30,194 nucleotides of DNA from a virus: IMG/VR virus record IMGVR_UViG_3300000235_000015, positions 1-30,194 of that record, one strand, 5' to 3'. Positions 9,170 to 24,582 of this stretch are shown in pieces (within the stretch, counting starts at the first letter, position 1; every line of letters begins with the position of its first letter). Below the pieces are notes generated by a model, which saw nothing but the letters and a program-made list of their open reading frames with translations, ran no database searches and was not told the DNA's origin. Both the position numbers and the translations under genes were made by a program.

Positions 9170-10384
9170 TTATTGGTTATGTTTTATATAATCCCCGCCA
9201 CATAGTGGACAGGTAGGTGGTCGTTTGGAAATCAAGGTTTTAGCGAGCTTTTGATTCTCCGCTATTTTACCGAAATGGTCGACAGTCAAGGAGATGAGGG
9301 AGGCCAGCTCCTCTACTTCCTGGTCCAGGTTTTTGAATCGAGTGTGAAGGCTAGAGACCTTCTTCAGTAGTGCGGCTGGCTCCTCCGTAGGTATTCGATC
9401 GAGTATAGCCTTCTCTCTCAACCCTGCAGATATCAGGGTTGAGAGGTCATATTGGTTGGTAAGTAGCTCTACCAGCTCAGAATTCATGTTCCGAGTATCC
9501 CTCACAATCGGTTCTACTTCTACAACCCACCCTAGTTCAGCCATGCTCTTTTTAGCCTGTACTAGAGCTGATGTTAGGGTTGTGAGTGTATTATACTGGT
9601 TGGCAGTAGAAGCGAGGCCCTCTGCTGTCTTTTTGGCAAGAACCACGGACTTCTGGGCTTCTTCAATCCAGGAAAACGCCGCAGAGCGTTCCATCTGCCC
9701 AACTAGCTGGGAAATGCTGGCTCCCAAGCCGGACTCAATGACACTCAGCTTGCTCATCTCCGATTGGAGACCCTCAATCACCTTGACCAATGCTTGGGCC
9801 TCGGAGACCCAGGAAAGCCGTTCAAGTTCCTTCCGGGATGTATCCAAGTTCAGCTCGATCCCTTTGCAGGTTGCAGTACTGGCTCTCTTTTTACCCTCGG
9901 CCAAGGATAGCACCTTGTCAATCACTTCCAGGTTAATCAGCTTGTTGAAAAACTTGGCTACATCCCCAGGGGATTTGGAGATCAGGAAGTCTATGTCCCG
10001 TTGGCGCTGGATATTCACTTCCGACATATTGAAGAAGTCGTTGACCTCTTGTGGTACATCAGTCTTGATAGCCTCCACCTTGGTTTCCCCAACCATGTAT
10101 CCATTCATCTTCGCAGATCGAATGCGGGAGCAGGTAGATCCATCGTTCTTGGTTACGGTGACCCTACATACCTGATCGGGCTTGATAGTACCCTTGTCTG
10201 TCTTGCACCAATCTGATACGTGAGCATCACCAGAAGGCCTGTTTTCTACCGCCCACAAGAGGCCTCGTAGGATGGAAGACTTACCCTTGTCAGAGGCTCC
10301 CACAATAGCGTTGATCCCTGGATGTAGTTCCAGTATAGTATCCTTGTGGGATTGAAAGTTCTCAAGCCTGATTGTCGCTATCAT
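9170..10384 (-). CDS. SbcC/Rad50-like ATPase, N-terminal half ending at the zinc hook
   Basis: 404 aa. The N-terminal lobe of a Rad50/SbcC ATPase opens with RLENFQSHKDTILEL and Walker A GASDKGKSS (29-37). It continues as a long coiled coil (about 150-385) and ends with TCPLCGGDY (Cys392, Cys395), the CxxC zinc hook, eight residues before the stop. Signature and Walker B are absent here but present in the separate gene at 5568-6179. The gene is full length for this arrangement, with a clean ATG preceded by AGGTAGG, and no sign of a frameshift. It overlaps the upstream gene by 23 bp and is followed by mazG and sbcD. Confidence 0.88.
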   Translation of the reverse strand: MIATIRLENFQSHKDTILELHPGINAIVGASDKGKSSILRGLLWAVENRPSGDAHVSDWCKTDKGTIKPDQVCRVTVTKNDGSTCSRIRSAKMNGYMVGETKVEAIKTDVPQEVNDFFNMSEVNIQRQRDIDFLISKSPGDVAKFFNKLINLEVIDKVLSLAEGKKRASTATCKGIELNLDTSRKELERLSWVSEAQALVKVIEGLQSEMSKLSVIESGLGASISQLVGQMERSAAFSWIEEAQKSVVLAKKTAEGLASTANQYNTLTTLTSALVQAKKSMAELGWVVEVEPIVRDTRNMNSELVELLTNQYDLSTLISAGLREKAILDRIPTEEPAALLKKVSSLHTRFKNLDQEVEELASLISLTVDHFGKIAENQKLAKTLISKRPPTCPLCGGDYIKHNQ

Positions 10385-10610
10385 GTATACCTACCTTGAT
10401 TGGCTGGGGTTGGTTGTCTAGGGAAGGAAGTTTTCTCCACTTTCCCGCATCAAACCCTGCACCTGGAAGGGTCATGCAATATACGGAGCCATCGTCCGTG
10501 AGGGCAAAGAGCCTCGCCCTCTCTAGGTGAGGTGGGGCTTTGATTGCCTTCCGGCTCTCCGTATCTACCAACACGCTAGGCGTAGTTGTAATTTGGATGA
10601 TTTTGCTCAT
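10362..10610 (-). CDS. Hypothetical protein (82 aa)
   Basis: Not recognised. Begins MSKIIQITTTPSVLVDTESR and appears to be a small beta-rich domain. No cysteine pairs or TM are seen. The RBS is weak. It overlaps the start of the SbcC N-half by 23 bp, so it is likely translated with it. The segment LFALTDDGSVYCMTLPG resembles the repeat of beta-propeller-type proteins, but a single copy means little. Confidence 0.6.
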   Translation of the reverse strand: MSKIIQITTTPSVLVDTESRKAIKAPPHLERARLFALTDDGSVYCMTLPGAGFDAGKWRKLPSLDNQPQPIKVGIHDSDNQA

Positions 10611-10625
10611 TAGTGTCTATTCCAT

Positions 10626-10877
10626 TTAGGTAGGTGATCTGAATTTGAGGCTCTCCCCTTTATAGTCTTGGTCTGGGAAGCCCTCTGGTAGGGAGCTCGG
10701 GGAAATCTCAATCACACTCTCCAGCCCGTACCAAAACCAACAAGGCTCTCCCCTCCGCATCTTTCTTATCGGTGGACCACTAGGAAGTGTACCTATAAGG
10801 GCGATCGGTCGGCCCTGACAATCATGACCCACCGCAGCTACCTCGGGATGGTCTTCGAAGAACTCACTTAGGTTCAT
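10626..10877 (-). CDS. Hypothetical protein (83 aa)
   Basis: Not recognised. The start at 10877 (MNLSEFFEDHPEVAAVG) overlaps the stop of the resolvase gene as ATGA and is preferred over the ATG seven codons upstream inside that gene. The protein is compact, with GEPCWFWYG and many prolines, and shows no known catalytic motif. It is in the recombination operon between the RuvC-like and SbcC-like genes. Confidence 0.6.
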   Translation of the reverse strand: MNLSEFFEDHPEVAAVGHDCQGRPIALIGTLPSGPPIRKMRRGEPCWFWYGLESVIEISPSSLPEGFPDQDYKGESLKFRSPT

Positions 10878-11392
10878 AGGGCATGCCTCCTCGCCCATTC
10901 CGCGATGAGAAGCCCGTCGGCATCACCTTGCTTCTTGATTTCAGCCTCCAATGTAGGGAACAGTCGGAGCCCCACTTCTTTAGAGGCCTTCTTCAATTGC
11001 GGGGCTCCCTTGGTGCCTTCGGGCAAGAATTCCTTCTGCCAAGCTCTGCTATCTATGAATTCATGGGGGATGTTGAGCCGTTCAAGTGTGATGAGTGTAG
11101 CTTCGAAAGAGCGAAGGGCTCTGCCCGTAGTCTTGAACATCATAGGGTTCACGAAAGGCCTTTCCAGGATGGCCTTGATATCAGATACAGCTTTCACATC
11201 CACCCACTTGAATAGCAACTCGACCAGTACACCTTCTAGTAATGGTTGGTCGATACGGGTGATCATGTTGGCTTTCTTTGTGTAGTCCTGGATCTGCTTG
11301 GTAGGTGGGGTGATATACATCGGTGGGCCATTAGGTGGAAGCACCCCAATCGAACCGGAGGCCCCATTGTCTATGCCAAAATACAGCTTCAT
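10874..11392 (-). CDS. RuvC-like Holliday-junction resolvase
   Basis: 172 aa RNase H-fold nuclease. The catalytic acidic set is in place: GIDNGASGSIG (D8) on the first strand, ILERPF (E77), and QGDADGLLIAEW (D157 and D159) at the C-terminal helix. Length and motif order match RuvC and its phage relatives, which cut four-way DNA junctions by metal-dependent hydrolysis. Here it would process recombination and replication intermediates before packaging. It lies directly after the recombinase operon segment and overlaps both neighbours by ATGA. Confidence 0.85.
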   Translation of the reverse strand: MKLYFGIDNGASGSIGVLPPNGPPMYITPPTKQIQDYTKKANMITRIDQPLLEGVLVELLFKWVDVKAVSDIKAILERPFVNPMMFKTTGRALRSFEATLITLERLNIPHEFIDSRAWQKEFLPEGTKGAPQLKKASKEVGLRLFPTLEAEIKKQGDADGLLIAEWARRHAL

Positions 11393-11592
11393 GACTTCTC
11401 CTCCGAGCGGGTGGAGAGTGTTTCCGTTGCTACGATGAGCATGAATGCCAATTCGTCTTTCGTAAGCGACTTACCATTGATGATAGCCAAGGCCACATCC
11501 TCTATGGAGTGACCAACTAGGTCGTGGTTGGTGATCCAGAAACCGCATTTGTCCCACAGCTTGGCTGGGTCAACTTTCAGTTTGATTTTCAT
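11389..11592 (-). CDS. Hypothetical protein (67 aa) between recombinase and resolvase
   Basis: Not recognised. Begins MKIKLKVDPAKLWDKCGFW; the rest (DVALAIINGKSLTKDELAFML) looks helical. Both ends overlap neighbouring genes by ATGA, which supports it as a translated gene in the RecA-RuvC operon. It may be a small partner of either, but nothing in the sequence shows this. Confidence 0.6.
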   Translation of the reverse strand: MKIKLKVDPAKLWDKCGFWITNHDLVGHSIEDVALAIINGKSLTKDELAFMLIVATETLSTRSEEKS

Positions 11593-12863
11593 ATATACTT
11601 CCTTCCTCTATTGATAGATGCGGCAGCCTCTTCACCCTCCCATTTCTCAATGGTACGGCGTTGGAGTTCTTGGTACAAAGCCGGGTCCCCTTCGATCTTT
11701 TGGATGAGCGTCTCCCGGTCGTATACATCACCAAAGTGGGATCGGTACTGTACTTGGATGGCTGGGTCGCTTTCCACCCATTTGGCGAACCAGTCGAGGG
11801 AGAGGTTGGCGTTACCCGTATCCTTCTTCTTGTCCAGTCTTGCCTTTTCGTCAAGGCCTACATCTTTGAGCCAAACTCTGATGTTTTCAAGGTTGCGTTC
11901 GCATTTGCCATCCCAAGCGATATTCTTGGTTGATCCCGCATCTATATTACCGGTTTTTGCATCCCGTAGGGAGTAGAGATAGTCGAGGCAGGAGCCAATA
12001 TCATCCAGGCCATAGTCGAAGTAGAAAGTGAAGCGGCATTTGCGGAAAGGTCGTGGTGTCTTGGACTTGAGTACCTTGGCCTCGACATAAACACCTACCA
12101 CCCGTCCAGCCCGCTCTATTTTCTGAATAGTGGTTAAAAACAGTCGGGTGTGGCAGTAGAACTCCATCGCCTTGCCACCACTGACTTCCCACTTCTGTCC
12201 AAACATCATCGCCTCTGGGTTGTCTCGGATTTGGGAGATGATCATGAGAAGTGAATTGTTATGCTTGATCGCCTGATGTTGCCCTTTGAAAAAGTGTTGG
12301 GAGAGGAACTTGGCAATCTGCATCCCGTAGTCACCCTTATCCTTGACCTCTACTCCGTTGGCCAACTGGTTGGCTCTTGCAGTTTGCATCGCCTCACGAT
12401 TGGCATCGGACAAACCATCGAGGGAGTCGACCGCATAGATGCCACACTCCCCCTCTTTGATGGTTTCCAGGAACTTTGTGACTTTGGCGTCTAGCTCTTC
12501 GACCGTGGCCGAATCCTCTACTGACCTTGTCCCAAGTTTCCGAGCCTCTGGGCGGATATTGAAACCATATAGGTTAGTAGTGTCAAAGGTGTCCCCAGTC
12601 TCTGTATCGTCGGAAAACCAGCGATAGCCTCTCTGCTTGTGGTCGTGGTAGCCACGGGCGAAAATCTCGTTCTTGAGGAAGGACTTACCGGCGGACTTAT
12701 CGCCGATGATATTGACAATTACTCCTGCGGGGAAGCCCATGACCCCAGAAGCTCCCCCAACAGCCAAGTCAAGGAGGGTACAACCTGTCCGGAAACGGAT
12801 TGGGGTAGAGCTCTCTTCTTCTTTTGGATTCATAATGATATCTCGAATGGAAGTGGTGTTCAT
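11589..12863 (-). CDS. RecA/UvsX-like recombinase
   Basis: 424 aa. The RecA-fold ATPase has Walker A GDKSAGKS (54-61) and Walker B in GIYAVDSLDG. A RecA-type segment SGGKAMEFYCHTRLFL corresponds to the 'GGNALKFYASVRL' block near loop L2. It would form filaments on single-stranded DNA and catalyse strand exchange during recombination-dependent replication, with the SSB and UvsY-like proteins encoded just upstream. The first ATG has almost no RBS and lies 4 bases after a TATAAT. A second in-frame Met (12833) is possible but has no RBS either. A strong terminator separates it from the SSB gene. Confidence 0.88.
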   Translation of the reverse strand: MNTTSIRDIIMNPKEEESSTPIRFRTGCTLLDLAVGGASGVMGFPAGVIVNIIGDKSAGKSFLKNEIFARGYHDHKQRGYRWFSDDTETGDTFDTTNLYGFNIRPEARKLGTRSVEDSATVEELDAKVTKFLETIKEGECGIYAVDSLDGLSDANREAMQTARANQLANGVEVKDKGDYGMQIAKFLSQHFFKGQHQAIKHNNSLLMIISQIRDNPEAMMFGQKWEVSGGKAMEFYCHTRLFLTTIQKIERAGRVVGVYVEAKVLKSKTPRPFRKCRFTFYFDYGLDDIGSCLDYLYSLRDAKTGNIDAGSTKNIAWDGKCERNLENIRVWLKDVGLDEKARLDKKKDTGNANLSLDWFAKWVESDPAIQVQYRSHFGDVYDRETLIQKIEGDPALYQELQRRTIEKWEGEEAAASINRGRKYI

Positions 12864-19445: not shown

Positions 19446-20267
19446 TTAGAGAAAGAAATTGGTGGTTGGTTTGAAAACCTTCATCGCCTTGTGGTGGAGG
19501 CTTTCGTAGTAAGCAACTGAGATATAAACACGCTCTCGCGTACCGAGGGATGATTGCTCCTGTGCCACGTCATAATTGAAGCCAAGGGATTCTACCCAGG
19601 ATCGGACAATATCCACAGCCTTGGTGGTCTTCCATCCTTGGTCATCTATACGGACCTTCGGGTTCAGCTTTACAGCCTTCCGTTGCGGAGTGAAGATTCC
19701 ACCGAAACGAGCCATTACATGTACGGAGGTGGCATCTACCGACTTCCAAGGGTAGCCAAGAATCAGATCTTCGTCCATAATGCCGTAGCCATGGAACCCC
19801 ACCTTCTCAGGATCAGGGTAGAGTGTGAAGACTTTATCGAGGAACTTATGGAGCCTGTTTTTGCCAGCCCCAACCATTCCCCCAAGCCCAATATAGTCCG
19901 TGACCCCAGCCATCTTATGTAGCCATTCCTCCGGTTCACCTTCATGGAAGGCTGGAAGTGGCTGAAGGCCTGCATCGAGCATCTTCTCATAGTTGATCCA
20001 TGAGGCCTCTGCATCACCAATCACATCAAGTGCTGCGTATACATTGAGGATGGGTGCATTCTCCTTCAGGAATTGGATATACTCCATCAGGTTGATCGGT
20101 TTCCCACTCTTCGAGGTAGTGAAGGCTCCCGAGTCAAGGAAGTAGCTGTCGCAGTAGTAGGGGATCTTAATCTTGCGGATTGTAGCATAGCTTTGCAGTA
20201 CACCAATCTGAGGCATCCTACCATCTTCGTACTTCCCAGAGGTGATATTCGAGTAGTAAATTTTCAT
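19446..20267 (-). CDS. dpdA: DpdA-like DNA guanine transglycosylase, paralogue 1
   Basis: 273 aa, a TGT-related TIM-barrel protein of the phage DpdA type. Key blocks are YFLDSGAFT (Asp45, candidate general base), AALDVIGDAEAS (about 79-89), LPAFHEGE, DYIGLGGM, VGFHGYG and YPWKSVDATS (Asp178, candidate nucleophile). DpdA exchanges guanine in DNA for a 7-deazaguanine. It is the last gene of the modification block, coupled to queE by ATGA. A second DpdA paralogue lies at 21841-22665; the two share a 29-bp identical stretch, suggesting duplication within the phage lineage. The two may differ in site or substrate. Confidence 0.85.
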   Translation of the reverse strand: MKIYYSNITSGKYEDGRMPQIGVLQSYATIRKIKIPYYCDSYFLDSGAFTTSKSGKPINLMEYIQFLKENAPILNVYAALDVIGDAEASWINYEKMLDAGLQPLPAFHEGEPEEWLHKMAGVTDYIGLGGMVGAGKNRLHKFLDKVFTLYPDPEKVGFHGYGIMDEDLILGYPWKSVDATSVHVMARFGGIFTPQRKAVKLNPKVRIDDQGWKTTKAVDIVRSWVESLGFNYDVAQEQSSLGTRERVYISVAYYESLHHKAMKVFKPTTNFFL

Positions 20268-20977
20268 TCGATACCTACCAGCTTATGCGTTTGTAGGGAA
20301 AGGCGGTATCCCTCGGACTTGACCAGCTTGATAGCCAAATCTGTGGACTCTGCTACTGCGGAGTTGGGCTGGATATAAATGATCGATGGTGGTAGGTACT
20401 TACCCTGGAGAGCCTCCTTGGCCATTTCCCAAGCCTCAATATCCAGTTCCGTACCAATGACCAGCTTGACCTCGTCTGCGTAAATAAGCTCATCTATTAG
20501 TACCGGCAGGGTATCGTTGATCCCGAACTTGGGGCTGACAGTGATATAGGGCCTCACTTCGCAGTCGTACAATAGGGAGGTGAACGAGATTGTACCCGAG
20601 GTCTCAATCTGTACCTCGTAGGATCGGGAGGTCAAGAAGTTGATGAAGTCTACCAGCTGCTCTTTGTGGATAAGAGGCTCCCCGCCTGTGATAACAACCA
20701 GCGGGGGATTCTCGGGTCGGAACACTAAGCTCTCCATCGCTCCGAGGATATCTTCGAACTCCATCTTCGCATAGGTAGGCCTGGGGATGTATCCACCCTT
20801 GGCTAGCATTTCAAGCTCGCTGACTTCCTTGTCCTTCCCTAGTGACCAAGTGTGTTTTGTATCGCACCAAGGGCAGTGGACTGGGCAGCCCTGCAGACGA
20901 ATGAATACGGAGGGACGACCGGCCATACCACCTTCGCCTTGAATGGTGTAGAAAATCTCATTGACGGGAAGTGTCAT
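20264..20977 (-). CDS. queE: QueE-like radical SAM enzyme (7-carboxy-7-deazaguanine synthase)
   Basis: 237 aa. FYTIQGEGGMAGRPSVFIR and the radical SAM cluster motif C31-x3-C35-x2-C38 (in GCPVHCPWCDTKHTW) are diagnostic for QueE. ITGGEPL is the SAM-binding GGE motif. It converts CPH4 to CDG in preQ0 synthesis. The open frame begins at 21112 within the PRTase gene, but the ATG at 20977 (MTLPVNEIFYT) has AAAGGAG upstream and matches family length, so it is chosen. It overlaps the PRTase by 20 bp. Confidence 0.93.
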   Translation of the reverse strand: MTLPVNEIFYTIQGEGGMAGRPSVFIRLQGCPVHCPWCDTKHTWSLGKDKEVSELEMLAKGGYIPRPTYAKMEFEDILGAMESLVFRPENPPLVVITGGEPLIHKEQLVDFINFLTSRSYEVQIETSGTISFTSLLYDCEVRPYITVSPKFGINDTLPVLIDELIYADEVKLVIGTELDIEAWEMAKEALQGKYLPPSIIYIQPNSAVAESTDLAIKLVKSEGYRLSLQTHKLVGIE

Positions 20978-21410
20978 ATTGCTCCTTTTCCGCGACCCAG
21001 TTTTCAGCCTTCTCCCAAGGAAATACCACCCATTCCTCTGTAGCAAATAGGAGGGCTTTGGTTCTGTCCTTGGCTGGATTGAGGTGTTGATTTCGTTTGA
21101 GTACCCAAGCAAAAATAAGGCCGGTGGGATAGGCTTCTAGGAATATAGAGGCTTCAGCTCCACTGTCCACAATATCATCGAGGAATAGTACATGCTTGTG
21201 GGATACGTGGCCCAAGTCCAGAATCATTGGGATCTCCAAGATGTGGGATAGGGTTACACCAAGAACAAGCCCGCCTCTTGGTGGGGCATAGATAACGCAG
21301 TCTTCCTTTTTAAGGCCTTCTGTCTCCAAGGTAGCCAGAATGAGATCCTCCATCTTATGGCAATCCCTGGCCCAGTTGCCCCAACCAAGCAGTAGTTTAC
21401 GGAAACTCAT
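20958..21410 (-). CDS. Purine-type phosphoribosyltransferase in the deazaguanine cluster
   Basis: 150 aa type-I PRTase. The PRPP loop is VLFLDDIVDSGAEA (74-87). The N-terminal PPi loop is YAPPRGG (41-47). The C-terminal EEWVVFPWE is typical of (hypo)xanthine/guanine PRTases and sits where they bind the purine. It would convert a purine base plus PRPP to a nucleotide. The start at 21410 (MSFRKLLLGWG) overlaps the queD stop as ATGA, rather than the ATG seven codons upstream. It is not a known preQ0 pathway enzyme. Since DpdA exchange releases guanine, salvage to GMP is an attractive role, but substrate is inferred. Confidence 0.8.
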   Translation of the reverse strand: MSFRKLLLGWGNWARDCHKMEDLILATLETEGLKKEDCVIYAPPRGGLVLGVTLSHILEIPMILDLGHVSHKHVLFLDDIVDSGAEASIFLEAYPTGLIFAWVLKRNQHLNPAKDRTKALLFATEEWVVFPWEKAENWVAEKEQYDTSRQ

Positions 21411-21832
21411 AGGGTAGCCTCTGCATGACACTTATAGGTCTCTTCTACCTTGACCTCTACCAACTCCACATCCCCAGGGAGGTAAAGTGGTCCAATGTTG
21501 GTGAGTAGGTACTCTGCCATGTTTTCCGCGGTGGGGTTGAATGGTACCAAGCATACACCTTCAGGATCCATCTTTTGCATTTCCTCCGCCTGTGGGTCTT
21601 CTGCCCATAGAACCATTTTGTGGTCCCAGTTGGCCTCCAGCCACATACAGAGGATAGATTTGATCACCGAGAAGTCGATCACCCTCCCGATTTGGTCAAG
21701 CCCAACCTTGGGGGCAATCTTGAAATGCACCCTGTAATTGTGCCCATGAAAGTGCTTGCACTTGCTTTCATGGTTGACCACTCGGTGGCCAACTGAGATA
21801 TCGTGGAATCTTATCGCGTAAATTTTGGACAT
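21407..21832 (-). CDS. queD: QueD (6-carboxy-tetrahydropterin synthase)
   Basis: 141 aa, the PTPS/QueD fold. Zinc ligands His16 (GHRV) and His29/His31 (HFHGHNY) are present, with the catalytic Cys25 in ESKCKHF. Typical later blocks are VIDFSVIK, WDHKMVL, PTAENMAEYL and VEETYKCHAE. It makes CPH4 from dihydroneopterin triphosphate supplied by FolE. TAGGA precedes the ATG, and a GGTATAAT sits 33 bases upstream within the end of DpdA-2, so it may have its own promoter. Confidence 0.93.
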   Translation of the reverse strand: MSKIYAIRFHDISVGHRVVNHESKCKHFHGHNYRVHFKIAPKVGLDQIGRVIDFSVIKSILCMWLEANWDHKMVLWAEDPQAEEMQKMDPEGVCLVPFNPTAENMAEYLLTNIGPLYLPGDVELVEVKVEETYKCHAEATL

Positions 21833-21840
21833 TTGAGTTC

Positions 21841-22665
21841 CTAGAAGAAGAAGTTATTGGTCAGATTATACCGAGTGGGGGACTCGTCTGCCACGCACTC
21901 GAGCCGGTAGGCATTGACCTTCATACGCTCAATACGACCTTCCCGATCATTCTTGTTGCAGAGTTCCCAGCTGAAGCCGATTGATTGTACCCATTCGCGA
22001 ACCTTTTCCAAACTTATGGGGGAGTCTTGCCAAGCCTTCGCTGGTGCCGCCACTTTCTCTCCTACGCAATAAGTACCCCACGGAGTTTGTAATCTGCCGG
22101 AAAAGGCACAGAAGTACGCCCCAGTTGAGTCTGCAGTTTTCCAAGGGTACGCCCGCAGCAGGTCAGGATCGGTGACCCCGTACCCATGGAAGCCGACTTC
22201 CGCTGGATTTGGGAACATACTGAACACCCTGTCCATAAACTTGTGACGCTGCTTCTTATTGCAGAGTGCGATATTGCCCAGCCCAATATAGTTCGTGTGT
22301 TTGGCGTACTCTTGTAGGTAGCTCAAGTCCTCACCTTCATGGAAGGCCGGAAGTGGGTCGAGGCCTCGTTCCCTCATTTTCAAGTAGTTCTTCAAGGAGG
22401 CCTCTGCATCACCAATCACATCAAGGGCTGCGTAGGTGGTGACCTGATCACCCCGTTCCTTCAAGAAGGAGCAGTAGTCGTCTAGGGAAATGACCTTACC
22501 ACTTTTCCAAGCGGAGAAGGCCCCAGAGTCCAGGAAGTAGATGTCCGACCATTCCGCCCGCTTGATCTCTTTCACACTAGCAAAAGAGGAAAGAACCCCT
22601 ATTGAACGATGAAACCCGATGGGGAGCTTGTAGATTGCATCCATTCCGCCGTGATAGAGCCTCAT
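21841..22665 (-). CDS. dpdA: DpdA-like DNA guanine transglycosylase, paralogue 2
   Basis: 274 aa. It has the same family blocks as the protein at 19446-20267: YFLDSGAFSAW (Asp46), ALDVIGDAEAS, LPAFHEGED, YIGLGN, VGFHGYG and YPWKTADST (Asp179). Both candidate catalytic Asp are kept, so it does not look like a dead copy. It differs mainly after residue 180 (AYFCAFSG versus SVHVMARFGG), where TGT enzymes contact substrate and zinc. It is coupled to folE by ATGA. The two proteins could act on different bases or DNA contexts, or together as a heterodimer; none is proven. Confidence 0.85.
   Translation of the reverse strand: MRLYHGGMDAIYKLPIGFHRSIGVLSSFASVKEIKRAEWSDIYFLDSGAFSAWKSGKVISLDDYCSFLKERGDQVTTYAALDVIGDAEASLKNYLKMRERGLDPLPAFHEGEDLSYLQEYAKHTNYIGLGNIALCNKKQRHKFMDRVFSMFPNPAEVGFHGYGVTDPDLLRAYPWKTADSTGAYFCAFSGRLQTPWGTYCVGEKVAAPAKAWQDSPISLEKVREWVQSIGFSWELCNKNDREGRIERMKVNAYRLECVADESPTRYNLTNNFFF
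21865..21870 (-). promoter_or_regulatory. GGTATAAT box upstream of queD
   Basis: TATAAT on the minus strand within the 3' end of DpdA-2, 33 bases before the queD ATG, in the same GGTATAAT context as the leader cassettes. No -35 match is visible at the expected distance, so it is only a candidate. Confidence 0.35.
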
Positions 22666-23318
22666 TTATTCATCTCCACCAGCTTGAGAAACTCACTGCG
22701 AGCTGCGGGGTCATCCCGGAAGATCCCACGCATCACGGAGGTCGTCATTTCACTGGATGGCTCTTTGACCCCTCTCCAGGTCATACAGTAGTGCTTGGCC
22801 TTCACAATCACAGCTACACCCTTGGGAGTAATCACCTTTTGGATGATGTCTGCAAATTGGATAGTGGCTTCCTCCTGAATCTGTGGGCGGGAGAAGATCC
22901 AGTCGGCCAACCGGCTGAACTTGGAAAGCCCGATGAGGCGGTCTCCGGGGATGATACCCACCCAAGCCTGCCCCATGATAGGAACCATGTGGTGGCTACA
23001 TCCACTACGGATGGTGATCGGTCCCACGAGGTAGATCTCGTCTAGGTGCTCGGTATTGGGGAAGTCCTTGAGCTCCGGCATTGGTTGATAGCGACCCTTG
23101 AATACTTCCGTGAGAAACATCTTGGCCATCCGGCGAGCAGTCCCTTTGGTGTTGGGGTCGTTCTCCGTATCGATAGCCAAGGCCTCAAGTAGATTTTGGC
23201 AGGCCTCCTGCACTTCTTCTCTCATATTTCCCCATACCTCGGGATTGATATGCTCGGCGATGTTAGAGTTGGCCATCGCTGGGACTGACTTAGATTTAAG
23301 CATTTTTAACAGGTTCAT
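22662..23318 (-). CDS. folE: GTP cyclohydrolase I (FolE)
   Basis: 218 aa. The zinc and catalytic motifs of GCH-I are complete: SGCSHHMVPIMGQAWVG (C107, H109, H110), GLSKFSRLADWIFSRPQIQE and AKHYCMTWRGVK (C178). It converts GTP to dihydroneopterin triphosphate, the first step of preQ0 synthesis. The longest frame starts at 23348 inside queC; the ATG at 23318 with AAAGGAG five bases upstream is chosen. It is followed by DpdA-2 with an ATGA overlap. Confidence 0.95.
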   Translation of the reverse strand: MNLLKMLKSKSVPAMANSNIAEHINPEVWGNMREEVQEACQNLLEALAIDTENDPNTKGTARRMAKMFLTEVFKGRYQPMPELKDFPNTEHLDEIYLVGPITIRSGCSHHMVPIMGQAWVGIIPGDRLIGLSKFSRLADWIFSRPQIQEEATIQFADIIQKVITPKGVAVIVKAKHYCMTWRGVKEPSSEMTTSVMRGIFRDDPAARSEFLKLVEMNK

Positions 23319-23328
23319 ATGGTCTCCT

Positions 23329-24582
23329 TTAAGTGAAAGCTGGGTCATCTATACCGTTACGGTCGAAAGCAGTTTTACGCATAAAGCATGGGCCACACTG
23401 GCCACAATGGGTGTCCCCGTTTCTGTAACAGGACCAAGTGAGATCCATTGGAGCCCTGATATAAGCACCGAGCTTTACAATCTCATGCTTCATGAGGTGC
23501 CCTACGGGCTGATGCACCCGTACATAGTTCCCCTCATTCACGGCGTTGGGGAGTAGTTGGTTGAAAAGATTGATAAACTCGCCCTCATTGTCCGGATAGG
23601 CTCCGGATTCCTCCAGGTTGGTACCTAGACAAAGGTGGCTGAAGTTATTGGCCTCTGCGAAGGCTACTGCCAAGGACAGCATCACCAAGTTGCGGGCTGG
23701 TACCCATTCATGGGCATATTCAGCTCCAGCCAATCCCCCAGCGATATTATCGTCTTTTTGTAGGAGGGGAGAGTTGCCTGCCATTGCCGAGTAGCCCAAG
23801 GGCAAGAAATGTACTTTGGTACCCATTCGCTCGGCAATGGCCTTGATACGGGACACCTCATTATCCTCTGCCTTGCAACCATACTGGAAATGTAGGAGTT
23901 CTACCTCGTACCCTTGAGTCTGCATCCACTTGGCAGCTACGGTGGAGTCAAGTCCCGCGGAGGCGATGGCGAGGCATCTCTCATTGATGATGCGAGGGAT
24001 CGGCTCGGATTGCAGAGTGCTGAGGCTCAATACCGTATACGGCTCAAGTTTGCAAGGGCGATGACCAATCTCAACCACTGGGTCAAGGAATTGAGCAAGG
24101 CTCGCGAAATAGATACAGGTGGCTCCTGGGGTGATGCTGGCATAGTAGTATAGCGGCTTGTAATTTGCAGCCAAGTACATATCGTGCTCACCTACAATCG
24201 CCAAGGCGTAGCTCCCTTTGAGCTTCCCCAGCGAGGTAGCCACAGATCTTATACTTGTCCTGTCCAATACCTTGGGGATGATTTCGCTGTCAACTGCACC
24301 CGGAGGATTGCCAAGTTCTTTATCGTTGGCGATTGTTCCGTTATGTACCACCCCATCGTATGGCTGCAGACGGGTGGGGTTATCAAGCTCCGTAGTGGGG
24401 GTCGCCCTGTTATTACCAATCAACCAGTTGATCGGTACAGTTTTTGGCCCATCACCAGAAGGAACCATCATGGTTCCCTTCGTGAAGCCCTCCGCATCTC
24501 GACCTCGGAGCTTACTAAGAGTTTTGATCTCTTGTAGCTTGCTGTGATCGTAGTTTCCAAACGCCCCATAAATTGAGCACAT
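23329..24582 (-). CDS. queC: GAT-QueC: glutamine amidotransferase fused to preQ0 synthase
   Basis: 417 aa in two domains. Residues 1-195 are a class-II (Ntn) glutaminase: MCSIYGAFG with nucleophile Cys2, RGRDAEGF, GNNRAT and HNGTI. Residues 200-417 are QueC: the PP-loop ASAGLDSTVAAKW (208-213 core), NLVMLSLAVAFAE, and the zinc cysteines C385, C393, C396 and C399 in CGQCGPC. QueC makes preQ0 from CDG. The GAT-QueC fusion is known from Crenarchaeota and phage 9g, where it is linked to conversion of preQ0 nitrile to the amidine of archaeosine. AAGGAG precedes the ATG. It heads the modification block. Confidence 0.93.
   Translation of the reverse strand: MCSIYGAFGNYDHSKLQEIKTLSKLRGRDAEGFTKGTMMVPSGDGPKTVPINWLIGNNRATPTTELDNPTRLQPYDGVVHNGTIANDKELGNPPGAVDSEIIPKVLDRTSIRSVATSLGKLKGSYALAIVGEHDMYLAANYKPLYYYASITPGATCIYFASLAQFLDPVVEIGHRPCKLEPYTVLSLSTLQSEPIPRIINERCLAIASAGLDSTVAAKWMQTQGYEVELLHFQYGCKAEDNEVSRIKAIAERMGTKVHFLPLGYSAMAGNSPLLQKDDNIAGGLAGAEYAHEWVPARNLVMLSLAVAFAEANNFSHLCLGTNLEESGAYPDNEGEFINLFNQLLPNAVNEGNYVRVHQPVGHLMKHEIVKLGAYIRAPMDLTWSCYRNGDTHCGQCGPCFMRKTAFDRNGIDDPAFT

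Follow-up and report, generated by a model that had tools for sequence, protein, structure and literature searches.

A compact predicted 6-oxopurine phosphoribosyltransferase in viral 7-deazaguanine cassettes and its possible part in guanine recycling

Phages that carry 7-deazaguanine cassettes swap the guanine of their DNA for a protective look-alike. Enzymes of the DpdA type would excise guanine from the phage genome and put preQ0 or G+ in its place, with one free guanine released per base exchanged and each inserted base costing one GTP. Release of guanine by base exchange is established for the TGT family, and FolE is established as the GTP-using first step of preQ0 synthesis. We investigated what might become of the displaced guanine at a locus where a phosphoribosyltransferase (PRTase) gene is embedded in such a cassette. 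In the recycling scheme the PRTase would convert guanine and PRPP to GMP and pyrophosphate, host kinases would presumably raise GMP to GTP, and FolE, which adjoins the PRTase or is fused to it in many relatives, would use this GTP for the next round of preQ0 synthesis. From the predicted fold of the PRTase, its active-site residues, its conserved neighbourhood and the FolE fusion in relatives we infer a substrate, a direction of reaction and a benefit to the phage.

The window, by which we mean the whole stretch of 30,194 bases analysed, is the virus record IMGVR_UViG_3300000235_000015 of IMG/VR. Its cassette is encoded on the minus strand in the order gat-queC, folE, dpdA A, queD, PRTase, queE, dpdA B (Table 1), and all four preQ0 genes, folE, queD, queE and queC, were found in it together with two DpdA-type transglycosylases of the phrog_887 family. 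A sequence-only reading of this DNA had placed the PRTase between queD and queE with no strand named; the open reading frame is real, occupies that place and lies on the minus strand. The translational coupling to both neighbours that had been claimed is plausible on both sides, with an ATGA overlap at the queD end (21410-21407) and a 20 bp overlap at the queE end (20958-20977). By the reasoning of Hutinet et al. 2019 (PMC6884629), who link Gat-QueC with dG+, the Gat-QueC fusion predicts an archaeosine-type (G+) base.

Table 1. Genes of the modification cassette in the window, in their order along the minus strand
Gene	Positions	Strand	Product or family	Remarks
gat-queC	23329..24582	minus	Gat-QueC fusion (class II glutamine amidotransferase + QueC)	
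folE	22662..23318	minus	GTP cyclohydrolase I	here unfused to the PRTase
dpdA A	21841..22665	minus	dpdA-like transglycosylase A, 274 aa	phrog_887 E 6e-38, and alignment
queD	21407..21832	minus	6-carboxytetrahydropterin synthase, 141 aa	
PRTase	20958..21410	minus	phosphoribosyltransferase, 150 aa	ATG 21410-21408, TGA 20960-20958
queE	20264..20977	minus		start codon within the 3' end of the PRTase gene
dpdA B	19446..20267	minus	dpdA-like transglycosylase B, 273 aa	phrog_887 E 3.5e-43

The two dpdA-like genes flank the queD-PRTase-queE block, and their products are 42% identical to each other; they may serve different sequence targets or form a heterodimer. Two DpdA open reading frames are present in 4 of 177 distinct PRTase loci as well. 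Single-query scans of the viral collection with the window PRTase or the window DpdA returned no match, thus the collection holds no close relative of either.

When used as a single sequence, the window PRTase scored 19.2 bits against Pfam PF00156, below the cut-off of 26.3, and matched phrog_8995, 'phosphoribosyl transferase', at E 1.4e-12; the best PDB chain was the purine PRTase 1vdm (E 1.9e-5). This modest assignment became unambiguous once relatives were added, since a profile of 30 sequences matched 1vdm at E 9e-28 and E. coli XGPRT at E 1e-17. The protein thus has a type I PRTase fold, PF00156-like and with a PRPP motif. An AlphaFold model (pLDDT 90.1, pTM 0.84) retrieved 1vdm as the top Foldseek match (E 1.1e-8), followed by XGPRT with guanine or GMP, and gave VIA Z values of about 14-15 against HGXPRT/XGPRT and 13-14 against PyrR. 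The structural neighbours of the model include PyrR and a ppGpp-bound protein. Two other identities were considered and rejected: a chance open reading frame, which is ruled out by the profile, the predicted model and the conserved gene context, and a non-purine PRTase, because 6-oxopurine PRTases head both the profile and the fold matches, with OPRT, APRT and PyrR lower.

The fold and the residues of the protein match a 6-oxopurine PRTase, in line with the purine type that had been claimed for it. The purine-type PRPP loop, VLFLDDIVDSG, is present at residues 74-84; the WVVFPWE motif, which the sequence-only reading had taken for the very end of the protein, is present at residues 127-133, with 17 residues after it. 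By comparison with XGPRT/HGPRT, we take R45-G46-G47 to be the PPi loop, D78-D79 and D82 to belong to the PRPP/purine-N7 loop, K105 to contact the purine O6 and W127 to stack on the ring; the window protein thus has the O6 Lys, the N7 Asp, the stacking aromatic residue and the RGG of 6-oxopurine PRTases. Conservation was counted over 130 aligned relatives. The PPi loop is kept as R in 126/130, G in 130/130 and G in 130/130, the PRPP-loop aspartates D78, D79 and D82 in 130, 129 and 129, and W127 in all 130, followed by P131 (123/130), W132 (126/130) and E133 (126/130). Position 105 is K in 99 of the relatives and R in 14. A His replaces this Lys in the DpdA2-linked PRTases of seven loci (L013, L016, L028, L031, L050, L064 and L074), a substitution hinting at an altered base preference.

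The residue D82 presumably corresponds to the HGPRT Asp that acts on the purine N7, and 7-deaza bases have no N7 atom. Its retention in all but one of the relatives suits a purine substrate and would be superfluous for a 7-deaza base, which argues against an alternative in which the PRTase makes 7-deazaguanine nucleotides, joining preQ0, G+ or ADG base to PRPP so that the monophosphate, after reduction, would supply a modified dGTP to the polymerase. This route is also at odds with the distribution of the gene: the PRTase was found with QueC, without QueC and with QueF, therefore its presence does not track the final base, as would be expected of an enzyme whose substrate, for instance guanine, stays the same. 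The partner to which it is fused in relatives is, moreover, the first enzyme of the pathway and not the last.

The fold, the RGG loop and the DDxxDxG motif are shared with E. coli Gpt XGPRT (1a95/1a97/4jit), Pyrococcus 1vdm and Sulfolobus HGXPRT (4zfn/5bqo), as are the O6 lysine, the stacking Trp and a PW[ED] end. Unlike these enzymes, with which structural alignments give 17-28% identity, the viral PRTase sits among preQ0 genes and is fused to them in relatives, and most viral members miss about 20 residues of the flexible loop. The linker between RGG and DD, which in XGPRT holds this flexible catalytic loop and spans about 48 residues (counted from the profile alignment), is 30 residues long in the window protein, at most 35 in 110/130 relatives and longer in 20/130, showing that the loop is gone in most members. 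The window protein also has a Glu at position 86, in the 5'-phosphate loop, where 127/130 relatives carry the Thr/Ser of 6-oxopurine PRTases. Both departures count against recycling, and with the short linker, the PRTase may catalyse its reaction slowly or depend on a partner.

The missing loop lends weight to a reading in which the domain regulates or senses: the PRTase fold would bind PRPP, guanine or GMP and tune FolE or the cassette, with little catalysis. PyrR, which binds UMP, and XPRT, which binds ppGpp, are analogies for such a role, and the structural neighbours named above include PyrR and a ppGpp-bound protein. Set against the missing loop is the near invariance of the catalytic and base-binding residues across the 130 relatives, which goes beyond the needs of binding alone.

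To place the PRTase in its genomic context, we searched viral contigs with an alignment of six sequences and analysed the best 80 of 185 relatives; the seed was drawn largely from cassette PRTases, and the set therefore stands for this family rather than for viral PRTases at large. In 68 of these 80 the locus contains DpdA, an immuto-type enzyme or one or more of FolE, QueD, QueE and QueC, and in 7 further loci such a gene lies elsewhere in the record or DpdA2 lies in the locus. Among the best 80 of 185, 75 are thus accompanied, within the locus or elsewhere in the record, by a gene of the preQ0 pathway or for a transglycosylase, and in 5 (L026, L038, L049, L057 and L070) neither was found. 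A TGT-family enzyme accompanies 63/80 (43 in the locus, 6 elsewhere in the record, 14 of the DpdA2 type); a preliminary view that about half of the PRTase loci have no transglycosylase proved mostly wrong, as an enzyme came to light in 20 of the 37 loci concerned once whole records were searched and a DpdA2-type model was applied. Of the 17 loci without a TGT-family enzyme, 11 have preQ0 genes near a contig end, at most 0.9 kb from end to cluster in 10 and 4.5 kb in L065. The co-occurrence with dpdA clusters on which the sequence-only reading had staked its proposal is therefore present, at 75/80 for 7-deazaguanine genes and 63/80 for TGT-family enzymes among the best 80 of 185 relatives.

Surveys were also seeded with other genes, and the sets share some contigs. 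In the DpdA-seeded set the PRTase occurs in 30/80 loci, fused to FolE in 25, and the 50/80 loci without it count against recycling. In a PolA-seeded control the PRTase was found in 14/28 DpdA-positive versus 0/52 DpdA-negative loci (Fisher 2.7e-8, with kinship ignored). In the FolE- and QueE-seeded sets, where many contigs are short, the PRTase was present in 42/80 and 39/80 loci, respectively, with 31/54 transglycosylase-positive versus 11/26 negative loci in the former and 27/57 versus 12/23 in the latter; where FolE or QueE is present, the PRTase shows no clear association with a transglycosylase, which counts against recycling. This last result would fit a general salvage of guanine or hypoxanthine for the phage pool, with the PRTase near FolE because FolE drains GTP and without any particular connection to base exchange, as would the 5/80 PRTase-seeded loci, among the best 80 of 185, that have neither pathway nor transglycosylase gene, and bacterial contigs in which a PRTase::FolE fusion has no transglycosylase in the locus. 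The empty DpdA-negative class of the PolA control and the modification-pathway genes of 75/80 PRTase-seeded loci (best 80 of 185) speak against such a general role, which we regard as quite improbable.

Pooling all survey sets gave 199 PRTase loci, 177 of them distinct. A transglycosylase lies in the locus in 138 of the 177 and elsewhere in the record in 7; a further 24 have preQ0 genes with the cluster less than 6 kb from the locus end, leaving 8 others. The adjacent genes are on the PRTase strand in 162/162 cases counted. FolE is the favoured neighbour of the PRTase: it lies within 150 bp in 84/177 distinct loci, and in 42/177 the two form a single open reading frame with the PRTase first. 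Across many unrelated phages, relatives of the PRTase thus co-occur with genes for a transglycosylase and for preQ0 synthesis, and the association is tightest with FolE. That fusion and adjacency are mainly with FolE would also suit a regulatory domain; many PRTases, on the other hand, stand alone or beside QueC, QueD or QueE rather than FolE.

When the PRTase domain encoded by Vibrio phage 033B served as tblastn query, 43 records matched, including VpKK5, NP1, PaMx25 and Quinobequin-P09 and phages of Stenotrophomonas, Xanthomonas, Variovorax and Sphingomonas. Most of the matches lie inside genes annotated solely as GTP cyclohydrolase, and the PRTase::FolE fusion was read directly in 033B and PSASB_03; those in Flavobacterium and Cellulophaga phages are stand-alone genes. 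Flavobacterium phage immuto has queD, queE, the PRTase and folE together with a DpdA so named by its depositors, and in phage F379 the depositors named the PRTase 'purine phosphoribosyltransferase / queuosine biosynthesis protein'. No PRTase was detected when the whole records of nt-1, JenP1 (9g-like), CAjan, Me-ZS1, BcepGomr, phiSM and HVTV-1 were searched. The last of these has preQ0 genes and no detected transglycosylase, so that its want of a PRTase is in line with recycling. The first six of the seven phages, together with the PRTase-less DpdA-seeded loci, indicate that the PRTase is not obligatory.

Some loci contain the PRTase and no recognizable base-exchange enzyme. In a 416-kb phage record (L302) a FolE-PRTase-QueE run occupies positions 10001-11961, and DpdA, immuto-type, DpdA2 and PF01702 models detected no transglycosylase in the record, which counts against recycling; likewise, none was found with the FolE-PRTase-QueE run of L313 (36 kb). 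A 462-kb record with a locus similar to that of L302 (L320) does have a DpdA2-type match. Bacterial and archaeal contigs yielded 20 PRTase relatives. In L412 and L413, which have identical coordinates and scores, and in L414, the PRTase lies in full or partial dpdA cassettes, and L415 and L425 carry PRTase::FolE fusions with no transglycosylase in the locus. The fusion of L415 (7875-8843), whose FolE half is a weak match, is on a 2.4-Mb Tepidiformaceae chromosome with no dpdA cassette in the locus. The bacterial locus L425 (7011-9415) comprises two PTPS-like genes, the PRTase::FolE fusion and a short-chain dehydrogenase, after which come heme genes, the names beyond those given by the models being our reading of the sequence.

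The gene set of L425 looks like a pterin operon, which counts against recycling, and its PPi loop is KNG, a degenerate RGG. A PRTase::FolE fusion with a degenerate PPi loop in a pterin-like setting speaks for a regulatory domain. Loop loss and the bacterial fusion together keep a regulatory role in play, as an explanation that we consider unlikely.

The base-exchange enzymes in PRTase loci are of three types: DpdA, the DpdA2 of nt-1 (YP_008125322; family phrog_10773) and the immuto type, a family (phrog_19058) labelled 'unknown function'. For the immuto type a TGT fold is predicted (model pLDDT 94.3), with a TGT as the best Foldseek match (E 7e-8) and DpdA 7ui4 at E 7e-7; the best PDB chain for its profile is also 7ui4 (E 1e-3). 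The family includes a 'hypothetical' protein of the Campylobacter phages F379, CPt10, CP220 and their kin, found at F379 104959-105735 (L253 4960-5736) and at CPt10 54369-55139, which the model makes a candidate DpdA of CP220-like phages. A phiST hypothetical protein (phrog_20335; phiST 45606-46346, L252 5607-6347) adjoins FolE, QueE and QueD, and is a distant member of the immuto-type TGT-fold family. A broadened immuto-type model gave no match in 31 further records.

These assignments bear on the synthesis of 7-deazaguanine nucleotides by the PRTase. Hutinet et al. (PMC6884629) group the Campylobacter phages as lacking DpdA, and their discussion proposes a modified-dGTP route for these phages. 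That these phages carry the PRTase is in line with such a route, as are the position of the phiST PRTase, two genes away from a ribonucleotide reductase, and the PRTase loci with no detected transglycosylase. Campylobacter phages with dADG, as reported by others, nevertheless have both the PRTase and the TGT-fold protein, TGT-family proteins being encoded in the Campylobacter and phiST records alike, and with a base-exchange enzyme in most PRTase loci a nucleotide route would be redundant. We therefore judge it quite unlikely. The TGT-fold protein in phages grouped as DpdA-less bears in turn on how dADG enters their DNA.

Returning to the guanine-salvage loop that the sequence-only reading had put forward, we find partial support for it in the 6-oxopurine PRTase fold and residues, in the co-occurrence with transglycosylase and preQ0 genes and in FolE as the closest partner; it is weakened by the loss of the flexible loop in most members, by the loci without base exchange and by the bacterial PRTase::FolE in a pterin-like operon. 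In addition, GMP needs two phosphorylations before FolE can use it, which counts against the loop. That the window open reading frame encodes a compact 6-oxopurine (guanine-type) PRTase of viral 7-deazaguanine DNA-modification cassettes which recycles guanine seems to us, from sequence and model, slightly more probable than the contrary. For the broader claim, an undescribed recycling arm in which a guanine PRTase that lacks the flexible loop, and in many cases is joined to FolE, would return the guanine expelled by base exchange as GMP to the first step of the pathway and leave little net GTP drain, the chances appear somewhat short of even.

Recycling, if correct, would fill a stoichiometric gap in a well-studied anti-restriction system, the fate of displaced guanine, and candidate enzymes are at hand in phages that can be cultured (NP1-like Pseudomonas phages, VpKK5 and the Campylobacter CP220 group). 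A further question is whether PRTases that have lost the flexible loop are functional. Like the cassettes of Hutinet et al. 2019 (PMC6884629), the window has DpdA, FolE, QueD, QueE and Gat-QueC, and unlike them it adds the PRTase and two dpdA genes; the main text of that paper mentions no phosphoribosyl enzyme. The family phrog_8995 is matched by the window protein and by the two relatives tested, and nothing in its name points to DNA modification. A full-text literature search found no paper on this PRTase, and papers outside that search may mention it. PRTases and phage 7-deaza cassettes are already known; we found no description of the cassette PRTase, its FolE fusion or its loop-less form.

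One record of the survey (G016, the contig of locus L035) showed an irregular reading frame. Its DpdA match at 10594-11277 holds two TAG and four TAA codons, and a six-frame scan gave a stop-free open reading frame near that match.
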